Shown piece by piece: positions 4,370 to 61,420 of a stretch of DNA of 62,856 nucleotides (position 1 is its first letter; each line of letters starts with the position of its first letter). Made by a program: the position numbers and the translations under genes. Origin of the DNA: Saprospiraceae bacterium (lineage in GTDB: Bacteria; Bacteroidota; Bacteroidia; Chitinophagales; Saprospiraceae). Under the pieces are notes generated by a model. The model did no database searches. It was not told the origin of the DNA and saw only the letters and a list, made by a program, of their open reading frames with translations. The stretch lies in assembly GCA_030728245.1 (NCBI GenBank), contig JANQZX010000098.1:14745-77600 (forward strand), in the 5' to 3' direction.

Positions 4370-4528
4370 ACTAACTTTACTTAAAAGCAAAAGTCGTTGA
4401 TATTTTTATGGTTTACAGGTAATTTATGGGACAGAAGTAACCATTTTCCAACTTATCAGGTTATATATAAAATTAGATTTAGAAGCTAGAAAGTTCTTAT
4501 TTTGTGCTTTTTAAAATTCACCTCAAAT

Positions 4529-5116
4529 ATGCTTACAGAAAATTTCATCGATGCTAATTTATATGATATTGAAACAGCTGTTTTAGGTAAAAAGGTGCTC
4601 ATTAGAAGATTACGAGAGGGAGATGGCAAGTTTTTTTATGATCTGGTGGCGGAAAATAATAGTTTAATAAGTGAATATTTCCCCGTAATTACCTCTGCTT
4701 TATCTACTTTGGATGGTGCCGAGCTTTATGCAAGAAAAACCATTATTTCTTGGTTAAAACAGGAATCATTCAGTTTTGGCTTGTGGGATAAAGATAAATT
4801 ATGCTTAGTTGGCTACCTTGATATTTCAAGAAGAATGCCGGAAAATATAGGTGAACTGAGATTTTTTACAGATAAAAACAGAATGGGGGAAGGTATCATG
4901 TCCGACACCTTAAGCACTATGATTCCCTATTTTTTCAACCAGCTTCTTTTAAATAAAATCACCATAAAAGCATCCACTGAAAATTTTACGCTACCTACGT
5001 TAGCTAGAAAATTTGGATTTTTACGCGAAGGTGAACTCCGTGGGGAGATTTATAAACAGTCAGGCGATCGCGGCGATGTCTGGGTTTATGGTTTATTAAA
5101 AAACATGTACAAATAA
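4529..5116 (+). CDS. GNAT-family N-acetyltransferase (RimJ/RimL type)
   Basis: This 195-residue acetyl-CoA-dependent acyltransferase fits the RimJ/RimL branch. The N-terminal strand VLIRRLREGDGKFFYDLV is followed by a central strand (GYLDISRR...GELRFFTDKNRMGEGIMSDTLSTMI) holding the acetyl-CoA loop, and the C-terminal signature ASTENFTLPTLARKFGFLREGELRGEIY is typical of this branch. I prefer the ATG at 4529 to an in-frame TTG 27 bases upstream because the extra residues are not conserved in character. The gene opens a tightly spaced plus-strand run; the next start is 10 bp past its stop. The substrate cannot be read from the sequence: protein N-termini, small amines and antibiotics are all possible in this branch. 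Confidence 0.88.
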   Translation: MLTENFIDANLYDIETAVLGKKVLIRRLREGDGKFFYDLVAENNSLISEYFPVITSALSTLDGAELYARKTIISWLKQESFSFGLWDKDKLCLVGYLDISRRMPENIGELRFFTDKNRMGEGIMSDTLSTMIPYFFNQLLLNKITIKASTENFTLPTLARKFGFLREGELRGEIYKQSGDRGDVWVYGLLKNMYK

Positions 5117-5126
5117 AACAATAACA

Positions 5127-8105
5127 TTGATTTCATATATTAACTTATTCCTGGAATGGGGTAAAACCCTGCCAATCAGTAAACAAAATGAATTAACAGC
5201 TTTCTTAAAAGCTGTTAATAATGAAATTTCTCAGGAGGAATTTGAAAATCGTTTACTTGCCTTTCGCAACGCAGAAATAAATCCGTTGTCAAACCATCCA
5301 TTTTTTTCGGGAAATCATAAACACATAGTACCTAATTTAATAGGTCATAGTTTGGCAGCTCTCAATAAGCTTCAAACCCAATATAACCCAAATAGTCAGT
5401 TATTCCTTAACGAATTTTTGCGCTATTTTTTAATTCAGGAAAATTTTATCAAAGGAAAAGATATTCTTTCCGAGGTATTAAAAGTTGGATTAATTGCGCA
5501 CGAAGCCACGGATTCATTTCAACAAGATTCTGCCCAATACTCCAGGTTAATGGAGCAATTATTCACCTTTATCCTGTTAAAAAAAGAGGAATTTCCTGGT
5601 GAAAGTACCTATCTGCTTTTTTACAAAGAAGCCGTTACTACGACCCTTGGATTATCCTTTTTTCGCTACTTAGATGAAGAGAATGTACATTTATCTTTGG
5701 AAAGAGTCTATTTTGTCTATCAACATATTCCGCTGGAGGCAAAAGACAGGATGTTTGTATTTGATGTATTCCTGCGTATTGCCTTTGAAAGCGCTGGAAA
5801 TCAACAGTATAACCAACTACCTGTTAATCCGCTCCTGAGCTGGTATAAAAAAGGAGAAAACAAAGGAATTCAAGACGTAATTGCGGGAAGATTCTTAACC
5901 CTTTCTTTAGAAAAGGGTATTTTTAATATTGCTTACTTAACAGAAAAATTCCCTGTTATTAGTACTGCCATGCACGCAATCTGGCAATTTAATGAGAAAA
6001 ATATACTTTCAAATACTTTAGAAAGCAAAGAATTATTTCTCGAAAATGCCGGGAAAATATTGGATGTCATTATTAAATTTCCCTATTTAGTTACCTCAGA
6101 TACTCAAAATACGTCGCCTATTTATCAATTACTCCAGGGTTTTGATATAATAAAAGAAAGTTTACCCGATACCATAAAAAGCAATCATGTTTTACAACGT
6201 TTTTTGTTGGACAAATATCTACAATGTGCTGCTGAAAATCCAACCCTTTGGGAAAGTAACCAAGAGAAGATTGGAAATCAAAGTATTTTAGATCGTGGTG
6301 TATTGTTAGTTGTTACAGCGGCATTTCATCGCCAAAATGAAATGAGTGAGGGAAAAAACATAGCCCTTTTCAGGTCATTAATTTCATTTACTTTAGAAGA
6401 AATTTTACAGACCTACCCAAGTGAGTTAGGTTTGACCTTCATAAAAATTATCGTTTCCCCTGACACAGGATTTGGCTTCAGGTATGGTTTTGATCGTCAA
6501 TGGGCCGATCAAATGGTAGAAGCTGCTTTGGCTTTATTTTCACAACATCCGCACCTTATAGCAGCTGAAAATACATGGGATGACTTGTTCTCTGGCGTTT
6601 CTGATGCATTGAAAGAATCAAAAATTCAGCAACTCAACCTGCTTCCTGAGTTAACACGCATGATTTTAGAGAAATCTGCATTACAACTAAACCTGAGGGT
6701 ATCCTTAGAAAATGGAAAAGAAGAGTATCTTCTTATTGCGGGCTTGAGGGAAATTTTAGCTGCCCTTTCTGCCAATGAAACATCCAATTCTAAGCACCCT
6801 CAATTAACCCCTGGACAGTTACTTTCCTTCGTAGAATTATTACTGGATGCTGTTATAAAAAATCCTAACTGGTTGACTACCTCATTTGAAGGTAACCCCA
6901 TGATTAGAGAAGTATTGGCTATTCCATTCCGCACCTTATCGAAAATACCTGCGGATCAACGCTTAGGCTATGACTTACTTACTCAGGTCATTGAGTCCGA
7001 ACTTGAGGCGATAGAAAGGAGTCCGCATTTAATGGATCGGATACAATACGGTGAATCTCCTTCAGAAAAAACAGTATTAGAGCATGCCTTTAATTTAGTG
7101 ATTGCGTGGTTATTTCCTCCCGGTGAGAGAGCCGGCTTGCATAAAACCAAGCAATTAATGGACGTCATCGCTTATGCCATTGAAGATTTAGTTTCTGAAA
7201 ATCCAAACACCACTGGCTTAGCTATTTTAGAACTTATTTTATCTGATGCAGTAGGATTGGATTTATCCAATGGGATTATTGAAGACCAAACCGACGAATT
7301 GGTTGAAGCCGTGCTGCTTGCCATTGCTACACAACCTGAATTAATACAAGAGGCACCAGGATTAAGGGAAATTGCACAGGAATCAGCTGGGGCCATTCAT
7401 CTTTTATCTATTGATCATCCCGAAATAGGTTTAGAAATTCTTCGAAACCTATTTGAAGAAAGTGCAGGACGATTAACTATTTTACTGGAGGTAAATGACA
7501 CTCAATTCCGCCATTTACTTATCGAGGCTTTGCAGCAATTTGCTACAGCCATAAGTATGGAACGCAAAAATGGAAGATATACAATAAAATTAAGTGAGGA
7601 CCAGATTCTTGATTTAGTTCAAATTATATTTGAAGGTGTGGTAGAGCAGCCGGAATGGGTGGAAGACGAATATATCCATCAGGTTCTTGATGCTATTTTA
7701 CAAGCGGTTGATGCTAAAAGTGGAGGGAGAAGAATACCCTATTTGCTAGTCTCATTACTATTTCAAGCTCTCCTTCCAATGGCACAGGAACGATCCGAAT
7801 TGCTTGAAAAAATAGAATTTGGCGAAAAAAGAGAGGCCATTGCCATTAGTTACGTCGTAGAAAGATTGCTAAATCTATTGTTGGGCTTAGATCTCAAAGA
7901 TTGGAGAAAAGTAACTCAGGATGAGGCTATTGAAGCCATCGTTCACTTCTATTTAAACCTGATTAATCAGTGGGATATGAGCGCTGCATCTATTGAAGCC
8001 GCTATGACTCACTTAAAACAATTAGTAAGGCAGTTTGCTACGGGAACTTTATCTCAGGATGAGTTTTTGGATTTATTAAGTGAAGAAGACGATGATGAAG
8101 AATAA
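5127..8105 (+). CDS. Large helical protein with tandem repeats of about 262 residues; function unknown
   Basis: I do not recognise the family. The 992-residue product has no signal peptide or membrane segment, looks almost entirely alpha-helical, and ends in an acidic tail (LSEEDDDEE). Residues 1 to about 300 form a distinct N-terminal region. After that, units about 262 residues long recur: helix-P-hydrophobic motifs sit at Pro319 (IIKFPYLV), Pro580 (VIKNPNWL) and Pro842 (VVEQPEWV), and a second motif at Pro475 (SQHPHLI) and Pro737 (ATQPELI). The flanks agree as well (IQYGESPSEKTVLEHAFNLVI with IEFGEKREAIAISYVVERLL). N-terminal ISQEEFENRLLAF echoes C-terminal LSQDEFLDLL. No ATG is available before residue 140, so the TTG at 5127 is the likely start. 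It sits 10 bp after the GNAT gene and directly abuts the next start. A cytoplasmic scaffold role is only a guess. Confidence 0.85.
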   Translation: MISYINLFLEWGKTLPISKQNELTAFLKAVNNEISQEEFENRLLAFRNAEINPLSNHPFFSGNHKHIVPNLIGHSLAALNKLQTQYNPNSQLFLNEFLRYFLIQENFIKGKDILSEVLKVGLIAHEATDSFQQDSAQYSRLMEQLFTFILLKKEEFPGESTYLLFYKEAVTTTLGLSFFRYLDEENVHLSLERVYFVYQHIPLEAKDRMFVFDVFLRIAFESAGNQQYNQLPVNPLLSWYKKGENKGIQDVIAGRFLTLSLEKGIFNIAYLTEKFPVISTAMHAIWQFNEKNILSNTLESKELFLENAGKILDVIIKFPYLVTSDTQNTSPIYQLLQGFDIIKESLPDTIKSNHVLQRFLLDKYLQCAAENPTLWESNQEKIGNQSILDRGVLLVVTAAFHRQNEMSEGKNIALFRSLISFTLEEILQTYPSELGLTFIKIIVSPDTGFGFRYGFDRQWADQMVEAALALFSQHPHLIAAENTWDDLFSGVSDALKESKIQQLNLLPELTRMILEKSALQLNLRVSLENGKEEYLLIAGLREILAALSANETSNSKHPQLTPGQLLSFVELLLDAVIKNPNWLTTSFEGNPMIREVLAIPFRTLSKIPADQRLGYDLLTQVIESELEAIERSPHLMDRIQYGESPSEKTVLEHAFNLVIAWLFPPGERAGLHKTKQLMDVIAYAIEDLVSENPNTTGLAILELILSDAVGLDLSNGIIEDQTDELVEAVLLAIATQPELIQEAPGLREIAQESAGAIHLLSIDHPEIGLEILRNLFEESAGRLTILLEVNDTQFRHLLIEALQQFATAISMERKNGRYTIKLSEDQILDLVQIIFEGVVEQPEWVEDEYIHQVLDAILQAVDAKSGGRRIPYLLVSLLFQALLPMAQERSELLEKIEFGEKREAIAISYVVERLLNLLLGLDLKDWRKVTQDEAIEAIVHFYLNLINQWDMSAASIEAAMTHLKQLVRQFATGTLSQDEFLDLLSEEDDDEE

Positions 8106-8318
8106 ATGATGAATACATTAATTATGAATGAATTATTGTATGAAGTTGGAAAGGTTACCTTTATATTGGGCATCTTCAACAACCTAAGATATTTTCTTGT
8201 GGCTGGTATTCCTTTCCTGGTTTTCTATATATTCTATTCAAAAAAGTTCCACTATATTATTCAGACACGAAGACATTTTAACGAATATCAAGAATTAAAT
8301 CTTAATAACAAAGCATGA
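8106..8318 (+). CDS. Small membrane protein resembling the N-terminus of sterol desaturases (possible remnant)
   Basis: This product of up to 70 residues (possible starts at 8106, 8109 or 8124) has one or two hydrophobic stretches, with a core NLRYFLVAGIPFLVFYIFYSKKF. To my eye this matches the opening of Bacteroidota sterol-desaturase/fatty-acid-hydroxylase proteins, but those run to roughly 250-300 residues and carry histidine clusters; here translation stops soon after the first helix and no histidine box follows. It starts at the base after the preceding stop codon, and its own stop overlaps the next start in an ATGA, so it still sits in a translationally coupled run. It may be a decayed gene kept because it couples translation, or a genuine small membrane protein. 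The similarity is from memory and unverified. Confidence 0.5.
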   Translation: MMNTLIMNELLYEVGKVTFILGIFNNLRYFLVAGIPFLVFYIFYSKKFHYIIQTRRHFNEYQELNLNNKA

Positions 8319-25428: not shown

Positions 25429-26502
25429 TCAAATCAATGGACAAACCCTCACCGTTTTATAACGAGGTATTTTCTTGATTATATAATGCACAAAAATTTC
25501 AGGATCTGCCTGACCCGTTGGCAAAACGCCTGTCTTTGTTAAATTAATATCATAACTAAATCCAGCTCTGACATTACGATAAAGCATTTCAATAGACGGT
25601 GCAATCCTATTACCTATTTCCCGTTGTTGATAGTTAACATTTAAGTCAATGGCAAAAGTATTTCCTGGATTCTTATCTAAATAAACGCGAAATCCTGCGC
25701 TGGCCATCCACTCATTATAAGCTGCCTGTGTTACATAAATGAGATTTGTCGTAAGATCAATATTATTTGAAACTTGTAAAACACCCATTACATAAGGATT
25801 TAATCGCATAGGAATTTTTGACACAGCGTCAGGAAAGAAACTGGTATTTGGTGAAAATAAATGATGAACACCTACGCCAATGTCTAACTTACTCCTTTTA
25901 TTCAAAAGATCAACTAATTGTCCCTTTTGATCTGCCTGGATTCTAATATTTGCTCCCATACCGGCATCAAAAAATATTTTCGATAAATCCCATAGTCCTT
26001 CTCCATTTGGAGCGGAAGCATTCACACCATTGATTGATGGGTCATATTGACGATCAAATAACAATGCACCGGGGTCAAAACCTCTTTGATTTCCACTAAG
26101 GTTAAATCCTATAGTACCAAAAACCTTCTGGCTGAATTTTTTTGTGTATCCTCCACCTACAAATATTCCTGTTTGTTGTAAACGTGAATCTCCTGCCAAA
26201 TCATAGGTTAACCCACCATTTAATGACCAGAATTTATCATCTTCCAAGTAGGAAGGTAATTTAGTATCAAAGGAAAGCGTTACCGTTTTGTAATCAACAG
26301 GAATTTCCCTCCATTGATTTCTGGCCTGAAACATCAATCTCGTATCACCGTTGAACACACCCGATAATCCAGGTGAAACTTGCAATGGGTTTCTGAAAAA
26401 TTGAGTGAAATGAATATCTTGAGCAATTACCTTTGCAGATAAAAACATCAAAAACCAAAACAAGGAAAATAATTTTGAATTCTTTTTGTAAATTTTCATC
26501 AT
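25429..26502 (-). CDS. PorP/SprF-family type IX secretion outer-membrane protein
   Basis: This 357-residue outer-membrane beta-barrel has a signal peptide (about 1-27, ending in AKVIAQ) and the family opening DIHFTQFFRNPLQVSPGLSGVFNGDTRLMFQARNQWREI, which is diagnostic for PorP/SprF. Further family strands include SLNGGLTYDLAGDSRLQQTGIFVGGGYTKK. Proteins of this family partner with individual CHU_C (type-B) substrates for surface delivery or attachment. It is the first gene of the minus-strand cluster followed by the OmpA-like and surface-protein genes, so these surface proteins are the obvious clients. The dedicated client assignment is inferred from gene order. Confidence 0.93.
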   Translation of the reverse strand: MMKIYKKNSKLFSLFWFLMFLSAKVIAQDIHFTQFFRNPLQVSPGLSGVFNGDTRLMFQARNQWREIPVDYKTVTLSFDTKLPSYLEDDKFWSLNGGLTYDLAGDSRLQQTGIFVGGGYTKKFSQKVFGTIGFNLSGNQRGFDPGALLFDRQYDPSINGVNASAPNGEGLWDLSKIFFDAGMGANIRIQADQKGQLVDLLNKRSKLDIGVGVHHLFSPNTSFFPDAVSKIPMRLNPYVMGVLQVSNNIDLTTNLIYVTQAAYNEWMASAGFRVYLDKNPGNTFAIDLNVNYQQREIGNRIAPSIEMLYRNVRAGFSYDINLTKTGVLPTGQADPEIFVHYIIKKIPRYKTVRVCPLI

Positions 26503-38132: not shown

Positions 38133-38888
38133 TTAAACGGTACATAGTTCCTTTGCCCTACGTAAACTTTCCAGGGGTTTCCCTGAAGTAGGTATAAATT
38201 CTTGCCCTAAAAAGCCATCATAACCCGTACTCTTTATGGTTTTAATGATATGAGGATAGTAAAGTTCCTGACTTTCATCGATTTCGTTTCTTCCTGGAAG
38301 ACCTGCCGTATGATAATGGCCAATCACCTCATGATATTTCAGGATATTATTACTAATATTTCCCTCCATTACCTGAGCGTGATAAATATCATACAATAAT
38401 TTAAAGTTCGGGGAGCCCAATTTTTGTACTAAAGCTGCACCCCAGGCGGTATGATCGCATTGATAATCAGCATGATCAATATAACTATTCAGCAGTTCAA
38501 TAACTATTTTGACACCGTATTTTTCAGCTTCCTTTGTCACCATTTCCAAACCTCTTGCACAATTTTCAAGTCCTTGCTCGTCCGAAATACCATTTCTGTT
38601 TCCAGAAAAACAAATAACGGAAGGAATTCCATTTTCACTTGCCTGTCTGATAAACCTCGCATAATTCTCTTGAAGGAAGGCATGATTTTTAGGATCATTA
38701 AATCCTTTAGAAATATTACAAAAGCTATCCATACCAACGGCACAAGTAAGACCTGCATCTTTGACGACCTTCCAATCGGCAGGCCCTAAAATTTCTACCG
38801 ATTCAAAACCCAATGCTTTAACCTCTTTACAAAACTCGGGTAAGGTATAAAAGGCGCGAAAACACCAGTAACAAACAGAATGTTTCAT
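38133..38888 (-). CDS. Hydroxypyruvate isomerase-like TIM-barrel sugar isomerase
   Basis: This 251-residue AP-endonuclease/xylose-isomerase-type TIM barrel belongs with the hydroxypyruvate isomerase (Hyi) branch. The visible metal and catalytic residues are Glu131 (IELLNS), Asp167 and His170 (LLYDIYHAQVMEGN), the segment HYHTAGLPGRNEID (191-204) and Glu230 (FLGQEF). It likely interconverts a small keto-sugar or keto-acid in the cytoplasm. It lies 57 bp downstream of the gluconate-dehydrogenase-subunit-3-like and GMC genes, so the substrate may be a product of that oxidoreductase. Other substrates such as keto-sugars (2-keto or 3-keto) cannot be ruled out from motifs. Confidence 0.85.
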   Translation of the reverse strand: MKHSVCYWCFRAFYTLPEFCKEVKALGFESVEILGPADWKVVKDAGLTCAVGMDSFCNISKGFNDPKNHAFLQENYARFIRQASENGIPSVICFSGNRNGISDEQGLENCARGLEMVTKEAEKYGVKIVIELLNSYIDHADYQCDHTAWGAALVQKLGSPNFKLLYDIYHAQVMEGNISNNILKYHEVIGHYHTAGLPGRNEIDESQELYYPHIIKTIKSTGYDGFLGQEFIPTSGKPLESLRRAKELCTV

Positions 38889-59276: not shown

Positions 59277-59356
59277 TGCGATTTTGTTCCATGTAATATA
59301 ATTATTAAATCTATTATTCTTGAATTCACCATTTATCTATTTTGTTATTTTTGAGC

Positions 59357-61420
59357 ATGAAAAAAACAACGACACTTCAACTCCTTTCCTTTTTAGGTTT
59401 TCTATGTTTAATTAAGCCTGTATTTTCACAAAACAATTCAACTTCAAATGTACCGGACAGTTTAATATCTCTTAACCTTAATGAGGTCATTTTTACGGGT
59501 AAAAAATTGAAATCCAATGTTTTTAATACTGCGGAATCCATATCCATCCTTCATTCAAAATCTCTTTCCTTAAATTCCCAGCGAAATACGCCTGAGTTAT
59601 TAAATGAATCACCGGGAGTATTTATTCAGAAGACAAATCATGGTGGAGGTTCTGCGTTTCTAAGAGGATTAACTGGCAATCAAGTATTATATTTAATTGA
59701 TGGTATTAGGATAAATAATGCCATTACCCGTTATGGCCCCAATCAATATTTGAACACTATTGATCGGTTTAGCTTAGAAAGAATTGAGATTGTTCGTGGT
59801 TCAGGTTCCGTACTTTTTGGCTCTGATGCAATAGGTGGTGTCATAAATATGTTGAGCATAAATCCAGATGTAAATCAACAAAAGAAGTTATTGGGTAAAA
59901 TTTCAACCAGGATTGGCTCTAATCATCTGGAAGAAAGTTTAAATGGAAGAATAAGTTATCAAAACAAAGAAAGTTGGTTGACCTCGGGCATCACAACCCG
60001 TTCCTTTGGTGATTTGATTGGCGGAAAAAATACCAAGTTACAGCATCCCAGTGGCTATGACGAATTTTGCTATGATGTAAAAACTAATTTACAAATTAAC
60101 AAAAGGCACACTATACAAGGTCTTTTTCAGTACGTCCACCAAAAGGATGTGCCAGTTTATCATAAATATATTTTGGAAAATTTTGCCCTTAATAAAATGG
60201 ATCCTCAAAAAAGGAATCTGGCGTATGTCGGTTATACTTATACTCCTGAAAAAGGATTTATCCAAAACATTAAATTCACCCCCAATTTCCAACAGGTCAC
60301 AGAGAGTCGATGGAGTAAAAAAAATAACAGCAACCTGACTACTATTGAAAATGATACGGTTGAGATATTTGGCGTATTGACTGAATTGAATACCTTAAAA
60401 AATATAGGGGATTGGAAATGGTCGGGAAGCCATGGATTTGACCTTTATCATGACAAAGTAAACAGTAATAGGTTTCAAATCTATGATGATAATAATACAC
60501 CTATATATAGAAGAGGACTTTATCCTGATGATGCTACGCAAATCAGTTATGCTTTTTTTACCAACCAACATATCGAGAAAAATAAATTTCAGGTAACCCT
60601 GGGAAATCGTATCCAGTTCCTTTCCTTACAAATTCCCATTGACAATGGGCAGGTGATAAATATTCAACCCAAGGCATGGGTAGGAAATTTATATGTAGCA
60701 CAAGCCATATTACCGAAATTAAAATTGATTTACGGGTTAAATACCGGATTTAGAGCGCCAAATATAGATGATTTAGGTAGTCTGGGCATTGTTGATTTCA
60801 GATATGAGATACCCAATTATGAATTAAGACCTGAAAAATCGGCACAGATACAAATAGGTTACAAATGGAATGGGCCTAAATTTAACATGGAAACTTATAC
60901 TTATTATAATCGCCTGAAGGACATTGTCGTACGAAACAAAAAAGGAAATGAAACAATAGATGGCTACCCAGTTTACATCAAGGAAAATGCAGAAAACGGA
61001 TATATTATGGGTGTGGAGACAAATTTTCAGTATATCCTGAGCAGATACTTACAAATGACAGGGAGCCTTACCTACACCTATGGACAGAATACAAGTAAGA
61101 AAGAACCTATCAGAAGAATTCCCCCCCTTTTTGGTTATGTCAATATTCAATATCAAAAGGAGAAATATTGGGCTAAATTATTTTTTCAACTGGCTGGTAA
61201 ACAACAAAGGCTTGCTGCAGGAGATATTTCTGACAATAGGATTGGCCGCTTGGGAACGCCAGGCTGGAGCGTAATCAATATATCCAATGGATTCAATTTC
61301 AAAAAAATGGATATAAATCTTACGCTCCAGAATGTATTGGACAAGGATTATAAATTCCATGGATCTGGAATTAATGGCGTTGGCAGATCCTTAATTCTTG
61401 GATTTAGCTGGTCCATTTGA
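59357..61420 (+). CDS. TonB-dependent outer-membrane receptor
   Basis: Starting at ATG 59357 the product is 687 residues: a signal peptide (1-24, ending PVFSQ), no CarboxypepD-type N-terminal extension, a plug domain (about 40-165; ELLNESPGVFIQKTNHGGGSAFLRGLTGNQVLYLIDGIRINNAITRYG...ERIEIVRGSGSVLFGSDAIGGVINM) and a beta-barrel ending in the typical aromatic SLILGFSWSI. It would import a bulky substrate across the outer membrane with TonB energy. The short form resembles receptors for siderophores, haem or vitamin B12 rather than SusC-type glycan transporters. The last 30 bases overlap the convergent phosphoesterase gene. A C7 tract occurs at 61121-61127. Confidence 0.95.
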   Translation: MKKTTTLQLLSFLGFLCLIKPVFSQNNSTSNVPDSLISLNLNEVIFTGKKLKSNVFNTAESISILHSKSLSLNSQRNTPELLNESPGVFIQKTNHGGGSAFLRGLTGNQVLYLIDGIRINNAITRYGPNQYLNTIDRFSLERIEIVRGSGSVLFGSDAIGGVINMLSINPDVNQQKKLLGKISTRIGSNHLEESLNGRISYQNKESWLTSGITTRSFGDLIGGKNTKLQHPSGYDEFCYDVKTNLQINKRHTIQGLFQYVHQKDVPVYHKYILENFALNKMDPQKRNLAYVGYTYTPEKGFIQNIKFTPNFQQVTESRWSKKNNSNLTTIENDTVEIFGVLTELNTLKNIGDWKWSGSHGFDLYHDKVNSNRFQIYDDNNTPIYRRGLYPDDATQISYAFFTNQHIEKNKFQVTLGNRIQFLSLQIPIDNGQVINIQPKAWVGNLYVAQAILPKLKLIYGLNTGFRAPNIDDLGSLGIVDFRYEIPNYELRPEKSAQIQIGYKWNGPKFNMETYTYYNRLKDIVVRNKKGNETIDGYPVYIKENAENGYIMGVETNFQYILSRYLQMTGSLTYTYGQNTSKKEPIRRIPPLFGYVNIQYQKEKYWAKLFFQLAGKQQRLAAGDISDNRIGRLGTPGWSVINISNGFNFKKMDINLTLQNVLDKDYKFHGSGINGVGRSLILGFSWSI

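Follow-up and report, generated by a model that had tools for sequence, protein, structure and literature searches.

The Repeat Gene and Its Locus

The window, i.e., the whole 62,856-nucleotide stretch of Saprospiraceae DNA that was analyzed, contains close to its start a gene for a 992-residue protein that is built, in its larger part, from very long tandem units. It is present as one copy in the source genome, a 3.92-Mb draft, and it is preceded by the gene of a GNAT acetyltransferase and followed by a relic of a fatty-acid hydroxylase gene and by the gene of an M16 protease (Table 1). Close relatives with 93–97% identity come from five records of the same genus, where they are full or nearly full length, while a sixth assembly has the gene as two contig pieces. 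These relatives are drafts, and their records are labelled Saprospiraceae, Haliscomenobacteraceae, Haliscomenobacter, or just Bacteroidota or Bacteroidetes.

Table 1. Repeat gene of the window, the parts of its product, and two adjacent features (positions count from the first letter of the window)
Feature	Positions	Strand	Remarks
GNAT acetyltransferase	4502..5116	+	10-nt gap before the repeat gene; Acetyltransf_3 E 8.8e-9
992-residue repeat protein	5127..8105	+	TTG start, TAA stop
Residues 1-160, short and diverged N-terminal region	5127..5606	+	no match to the N-domain profile of the family; alignment
Residues 161-417, probable decayed first repeat unit	5607..6377	+	recognizable over residues 300-401 (hhalign); fast-evolving
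Residues 418-679, repeat unit of middle type	6378..7163	+	unit HMM 284 bits
Residues 680-941, repeat unit of last type	7164..7949	+	unit HMM 231 bits; inside the supported set of last units
Residues 942-992, short acidic tail	7950..8102	+	composition, alignment
70-residue fatty-acid-hydroxylase relic	8106..8318	+	between the repeat gene and the M16 gene; longer in L024, L026

A preliminary description, made from the letters of the window, had proposed that the protein arose by an old internal duplication of a unit of about 262 residues, and the self-comparison bears this out. In an ungapped BLOSUM62 diagonal scan, the diagonal is present at offset 262, where residues 418–587 match residues 680–849 with a score of 171, against a maximum of 48 over 30 residue shuffles. 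The third copy, which had been read from the pair Pro319 and Pro580, stands in part: the same scan gives a score of 38 at offset 261 (residues 311–379), which is within chance, whereas a very shallow profile of residues 155–417, built from six sequences of the genus, can be aligned to the unit profile of the family over residues 300–401 (hhalign, E 1.3e-4, probability 54%). Judged from the sequence, the protein holds two clear copies of the unit and probably one decayed copy before them. Inside the unit, neither an apparent shorter period of about 105 residues nor a tandem repeat of about 40 residues, the hallmark of HEAT/ARM proteins, is supported (best offset score 41, 95% null 49). The acidic tail that had been noted is evident in the composition of residues 942–992, with 12 D/E and 2 K/R, and the ISQEEF motif gives a SHOCT line at E 0.052, below the Pfam cut-off.

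A Repeat Family Confined to Saprospiraceae

With the window protein as query, matches were found in 15 of 60 relatives and in 42 of the 298 genomes of the taxonomic family, the Saprospiraceae; the profile of the unit finds 41 of the 298. The genome G027, with a weak match to the window protein (E 7.9e-4), is not recovered by the unit profile and was dropped as a carrier. Draws of genomes over the order and over the phylum gave 12 of 298, all in the same taxonomic family, and 1 of 395, namely the window's own genome, so that the unit appeared in no second taxonomic family within these wider draws.

Iterated profile searches and the fetched open reading frames (ORFs) define a common architecture, in which an N-terminal domain of about 290 residues (N-domain) is followed by two to five units and then by a short tail. 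Among the 25 full-length members from outside the window's genus (L074 and L033, both cut by contig ends, are left out of this count), one has two scored units, 15 have three, seven have four, and two have five. The members fall into length groups near 851, 1110, 1380, and 1640 residues; those of 989, 1058, and 1198 residues do not fit these groups. One genome, G132, has the repeat gene twice, as diverged copies (L069 and L070), each followed by its own gene for a lipoprotein of the type described below.

Regarding the history of the units, a tree of 66 of them, made without ten near-duplicate loci, partial units, and proteins having fewer than two units, groups them by position, needing 4 label changes where shuffling gives 31.5 on average. 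The unit alignment (A1) comprises 63 of the 82 listed units together with the two from the window. These last two fall with the middle and last types, the first of them having carried the label "first" in that count; residues 418–679 lie closest to middle units from other genera, and no small set around them is well supported. The grouping by position argues for an ancestor with three distinct units, to which middle units would have been added later. Most likely, the longer members are those that gained middle units, and the first unit of the window protein decayed.

With two consecutive units that match the unit profile, the window protein is a derived member of this family, one without the N-domain. 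The family itself is undescribed, restricted to one lineage, and absent from the libraries searched; among the published works listed, judged by title or by the opening of the abstract, none resembles it.

Comparison with Known Families and Folds

In keeping with the preliminary description, which named no family with this architecture, the library searches place the protein in no catalogued family. For the window protein, Pfam gave three sub-threshold lines, PHROGs one line at E 0.74, and the PDB sequences one line at E 2.8, and there was no line in NCBIfam or PADLOC. NCBIfam also gave none for three other family members and two lipoproteins, and no single Pfam family matched more than two of 14 full-length members. 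When profiles were compared with the PDB sequences, the full alignment gave two lines, both with E of at least 0.17, the N-domain gave no match, and the unit retrieved designed helical repeats, the best being 5cwp at E 0.00078, along with lines attributable to chance.

The models obtained with AlphaFold2 from shallow alignments are mostly helical; the mean pLDDT is 42.8 over the full-length model and 55.3 over that of a single unit. Foldseek found no match in the PDB at E ≤ 0.001 (best E 0.051), and its weak lines include solenoids of the HEAT/ARM type; given the low pLDDT and the lack of a significant match, the fold is to be taken as a lead only. The solenoid idea of the preliminary description is not confirmed by these models.

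The likeness to HEAT/ARM-type solenoids, such as importin-alpha, beta-catenin, STAG, and the TOG domains, consists of the mostly helical models and of a length that varies through repeats. The differences are that the detectable unit here has about 262 residues instead of about 40, that no HEAT/ARM family of Pfam gives a line for the window protein or for the 14 members, and that the Foldseek lines stay above the threshold given. The tetratricopeptide families of Pfam likewise give no line for the window protein or for the 14 members (alignment A2); PF25785, which is labelled TPR and is the nucleoprotein TPR-like domain, reaches E 0.006 in one family member. As for the designed helical repeat proteins, their similarity to the unit profile most likely reflects a common helix-repeat composition; they are artificial and not homologues, and the match speaks for a helical and repetitive look only. 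On these searches, the window protein is not placed among the HEAT, ARM, or TPR proteins.

The N-Domain and a Secreted Lipoprotein

At 19 of 27 loci outside the window's genus, a lipoprotein gene is found downstream of the repeat gene and on the same strand, and at 16 it is directly next to it. The alignment of these lipoproteins (A3) includes 11 of the 19; the lipobox cysteine is invariant in all 11, and some lipoproteins have weak TPR matches in Pfam (best 1e-4). These two traits are shared with TPR lipoproteins, but they belong to the partner gene, which is absent from the window's genome, and the lipoprotein profile found nothing among the PDB sequences below E 0.14.

The lipoprotein is present in 36 of the 298 genomes, i.e., in 33 of the 41 with units and in 3 of the 257 without (Fisher 7.7e-33, a value that ignores kinship). 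The three are G020 and, with weak matches, G207 and G254. In several genomes, including that of Haliscomenobacter hydrossis (G153), the lipoprotein gene lies at a large distance from the repeat gene or on a different contig, and thus the association is more than linkage.

In G020, the lipoprotein-like domain ends a frame of 1658 residues (L107, 8016–12989, minus strand) that has PKD and Amidase_2 matches, and the gene beside this frame is one that we take to resemble a MoxR-type ATPase. The arrangement hints at a link of the lipoprotein family with peptidoglycan. A UPF0102 gene on the opposite strand was also observed near the lipoprotein gene at 10 tabulated loci (e.g., L030, 12482–12916, the one on which Pfam was run), as well as beside lipoprotein genes that lie apart from the repeat gene.

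The N-domain occurs in 35 of the 298 genomes, all of them among the 41 carriers of the unit. It is nearly whole in 34, being split over two frames in G296 and located on another contig in G074, while G024 retains just its second half (positions 136–269 of 291). The hypothesis that this domain is another diverged unit was not accepted (hhalign probability 7.5%). The lipoprotein accompanies the nearly whole N-domain in 33 of these 34 genomes and is present in none of the seven other carriers of the unit; the remaining genome, G149, has the N-domain and no lipoprotein match, in a fragmented assembly that is 80% complete. The N-domain profile (A9) matches none of the six genomes of the window's genus in the draw, the window's own (G000) included, and in G000 the lipoprotein profile has no match even at E ≤ 1.

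A quick tree, which carries SH-aLRT support only, joins G024 to H. hydrossis (support 95) and separates it from the window's genus, which points to two events in which the full N-domain disappeared along with the lipoprotein. In the tree test the absences fall together in 2 of 2 cases (sign test p 0.5), G149 (L062) having been given no lipoprotein state. This coincidence is suggestive and falls short of proof, and the half N-domain kept by G024 counts against it.

Other Neighboring Genes

The coupling to an upstream GNAT gene, as first described, holds in the window and beyond it: a GNAT of the same group is immediately upstream at 17 of the 32 family loci, five of these from the window's genus. 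These counts are in loci and come from a neighborhood table whose genes are ORFs chosen by length, L035 being excluded because it has no family ORF. A strong GNAT match (E < 1e-30) was found in 11 of 12 carriers hand-picked from the 41 and in 2 of 14 non-carriers hand-picked from the 257, and in three of the 11 carriers the best match is on another contig. The GNAT is associated with the repeat gene, not exclusive to it, and it was rejected as an obligate partner. Another neighbor common to some other genera is a presumably ComEC-like gene.

The M16 protease, which had been placed in the same operon, does not qualify as a partner. Its gene starts 209 nt downstream, and in the neighborhood table its cluster is confined to five loci, all from the window's genus; elsewhere the common downstream gene is that of the lipoprotein. 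Between the two genes of the window, the hydroxylase relic starts directly after the stop of the repeat gene, in the slot of the lipoprotein gene in many other genera, and shares 4 nt with the start of the M16 gene. Its counterparts have 276 residues in L024 and 270 in L026; Pfam, run on that of L024, gives FA_hydroxylase at E 1.6e-28, and gives no match on the 70-residue relic itself.

Opposite Constraint in the Two Parts of the Gene

The two parts of the gene differ sharply in selection. Compared with genome G006, residues 418–992 have a dN/dS of 0.0026 (dN 0.0007, dS 0.289), the lowest among those of the 39 compared window ORFs that have a comparable dS, with the next at 0.005, whereas the value for residues 1–417, 0.25, is among the highest of the window ORFs. 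For L026, compared separately, residues 418–992 give dN 0.0015 and dS 0.41. A codon map of six genus sequences, made without L026 because of indels and with L025 ending at residue 805, places the break in constraint between residues 403 and 404. Of the 403 codons on its N-terminal side, 87 differ in amino acid and a further 76 show synonymous variation alone; of the 589 on its C-terminal side, the corresponding figures are 4 and 214. The many synonymous changes after the break make recent exchange or a constraint at the DNA level unlikely as its cause. For the first part of the gene, the synonymous rates come out somewhat lower.

Such a split within the gene was not found in seven pairs from five other genera, where dN/dS ranges from 0.014 to 0.16 where computable, many bins are saturated, and one short tail is without amino-acid change. 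In two of the saturated pairs, the direction is the reverse, some units evolving faster than the N-domain by a factor of up to about three.

Elsewhere in the window, two ORFs on the minus strand (25432–26502 and 38136–38888) have dS values to G006 of 0.009 and 0.013, with at least 0.15 for the other 37, and we read them as possible cases of recent exchange or mobile genes. The fastest-changing ORF compared (59342–61417, plus strand) has 72% identity and a dS of 1.1 to its G006 counterpart.

Place in the Cell and Possible Role

Among the listed family rows, no 19-residue Kyte-Doolittle window exceeds 1.75 and no signal-like N terminus is seen by eye, and for these reasons the protein is placed in the cytoplasm. 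The most likely reading, which we favor with about as much confidence as doubt, is that the window protein works like an alpha-helical scaffold. The wider form of this proposal, a soluble binding scaffold of helical repeats in the cytoplasm whose envelope-linked half was discarded in the window's genus, stands at a similarly balanced level of confidence. The helices within a unit of about 262 residues would pack as a bundle, and such bundles, joined head to tail, would give an extended surface that is longer or shorter according to how many middle units there are. Because the N-domain accompanies a secreted TPR-like lipoprotein in most carriers, an ancestral role for the cell envelope is probable, and it could have been served either directly or through a membrane-crossing partner. 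The lipoprotein would be expected on the side facing away from the cytoplasm, and its contact with a repeat protein lacking a signal should need an extra step.

The window's genus no longer has the N-domain or the lipoprotein, and its first unit has probably decayed; the last two units and the tail are kept nearly unchanged, as might be expected of a surface bound to one fixed and important partner. The idea of a scaffold or of a substrate holder, first raised as speculation, thus gains the data on copy number, domain loss, and selection behind its scaffold part, but it keeps the status of an inference; the two saturated pairs in which the units are not the most constrained part count against it, and whatever speaks for binding does so indirectly. 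More tentatively, and on balance doubtfully, the observations may be combined into a two-part system specific to Saprospiraceae, in which a cytoplasmic scaffold of long units and a secreted TPR-like lipoprotein are coupled via the N-domain. The window's genus would have lost the coupled half, its two units would have been captured by an invariant partner, and the halves of the gene would have moved to opposite evolutionary extremes, possibly with two translation products.

Other explanations were weighed against a scaffold. Units of different molecules might pack together and so build filaments or a lattice, the protein being a self-assembling, cytoskeleton-like element serving the shape of the cell or of the filament. 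A long repeat protein of variable copy number with nearly frozen units, suited to lattice contacts, would fit this, as would the presence among the carriers of H. hydrossis (G153), a sheathed species found mostly in chains according to PMC3156403. Against it stand the net negative charge of both units and the tail (−13, −28, and −10) and the restriction of the data on cell form to this one carrier, and we regard the proposal as unlikely.

The N-domain might instead be an enzyme or a regulator for which the repeats hold the substrate, so that the gene of the window would have lost its active part. The domain is indeed the better conserved portion, with 24 invariant columns in 19 sequences and a mean column identity of 49% (the pooled unit alignment has no invariant column and an identity of 38%), and it is the one that was not found in the window's genus. 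Against this are the Pfam searches, in which no family matches more than two of the 14 members, and the lack of a PDB match for the N-domain profile; moreover, what remains in the genus is not decaying, since residues 418–992 have the lowest dN/dS of the window ORFs with comparable dS. This reading is thus rather improbable. To the same low degree we credit the notion that an internal start at Met406 yields the frozen part as an additional, separate protein in the window's genus, the first 405 residues being a loosely constrained leader or a second product. The break at 403/404 is three codons before an ATG that is identical in the six genus sequences, but it also coincides with a boundary between units, and the frame is open through the Met406 region in the members fetched.

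A decaying gene, or one in a mobile or defense island, is very improbable: the patchy distribution (41 of 298 genomes) and the probable decay of the first unit would suit it, but decay is rejected for residues 418–992 on account of their dN/dS, GNAT and ComEC-like neighbors are common to some other genera, PADLOC had no match and PHROGs its single line, and an origin as a phage or plasmid gene is rejected because the window protein had no match in 72,556 plasmid records and that of L068 none in 50,697 phage records.

Significance

A scaffold built of helical units, the reading that we prefer, would belong to a family whose repeat is far longer than usual and whose copy number shifts by whole units. 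The paired absence of the N-domain and the lipoprotein offers a testable clue to the role of this family in the Saprospiraceae. Moreover, the sharp break in constraint marks a stretch of 589 residues whose partner could be fished out directly.
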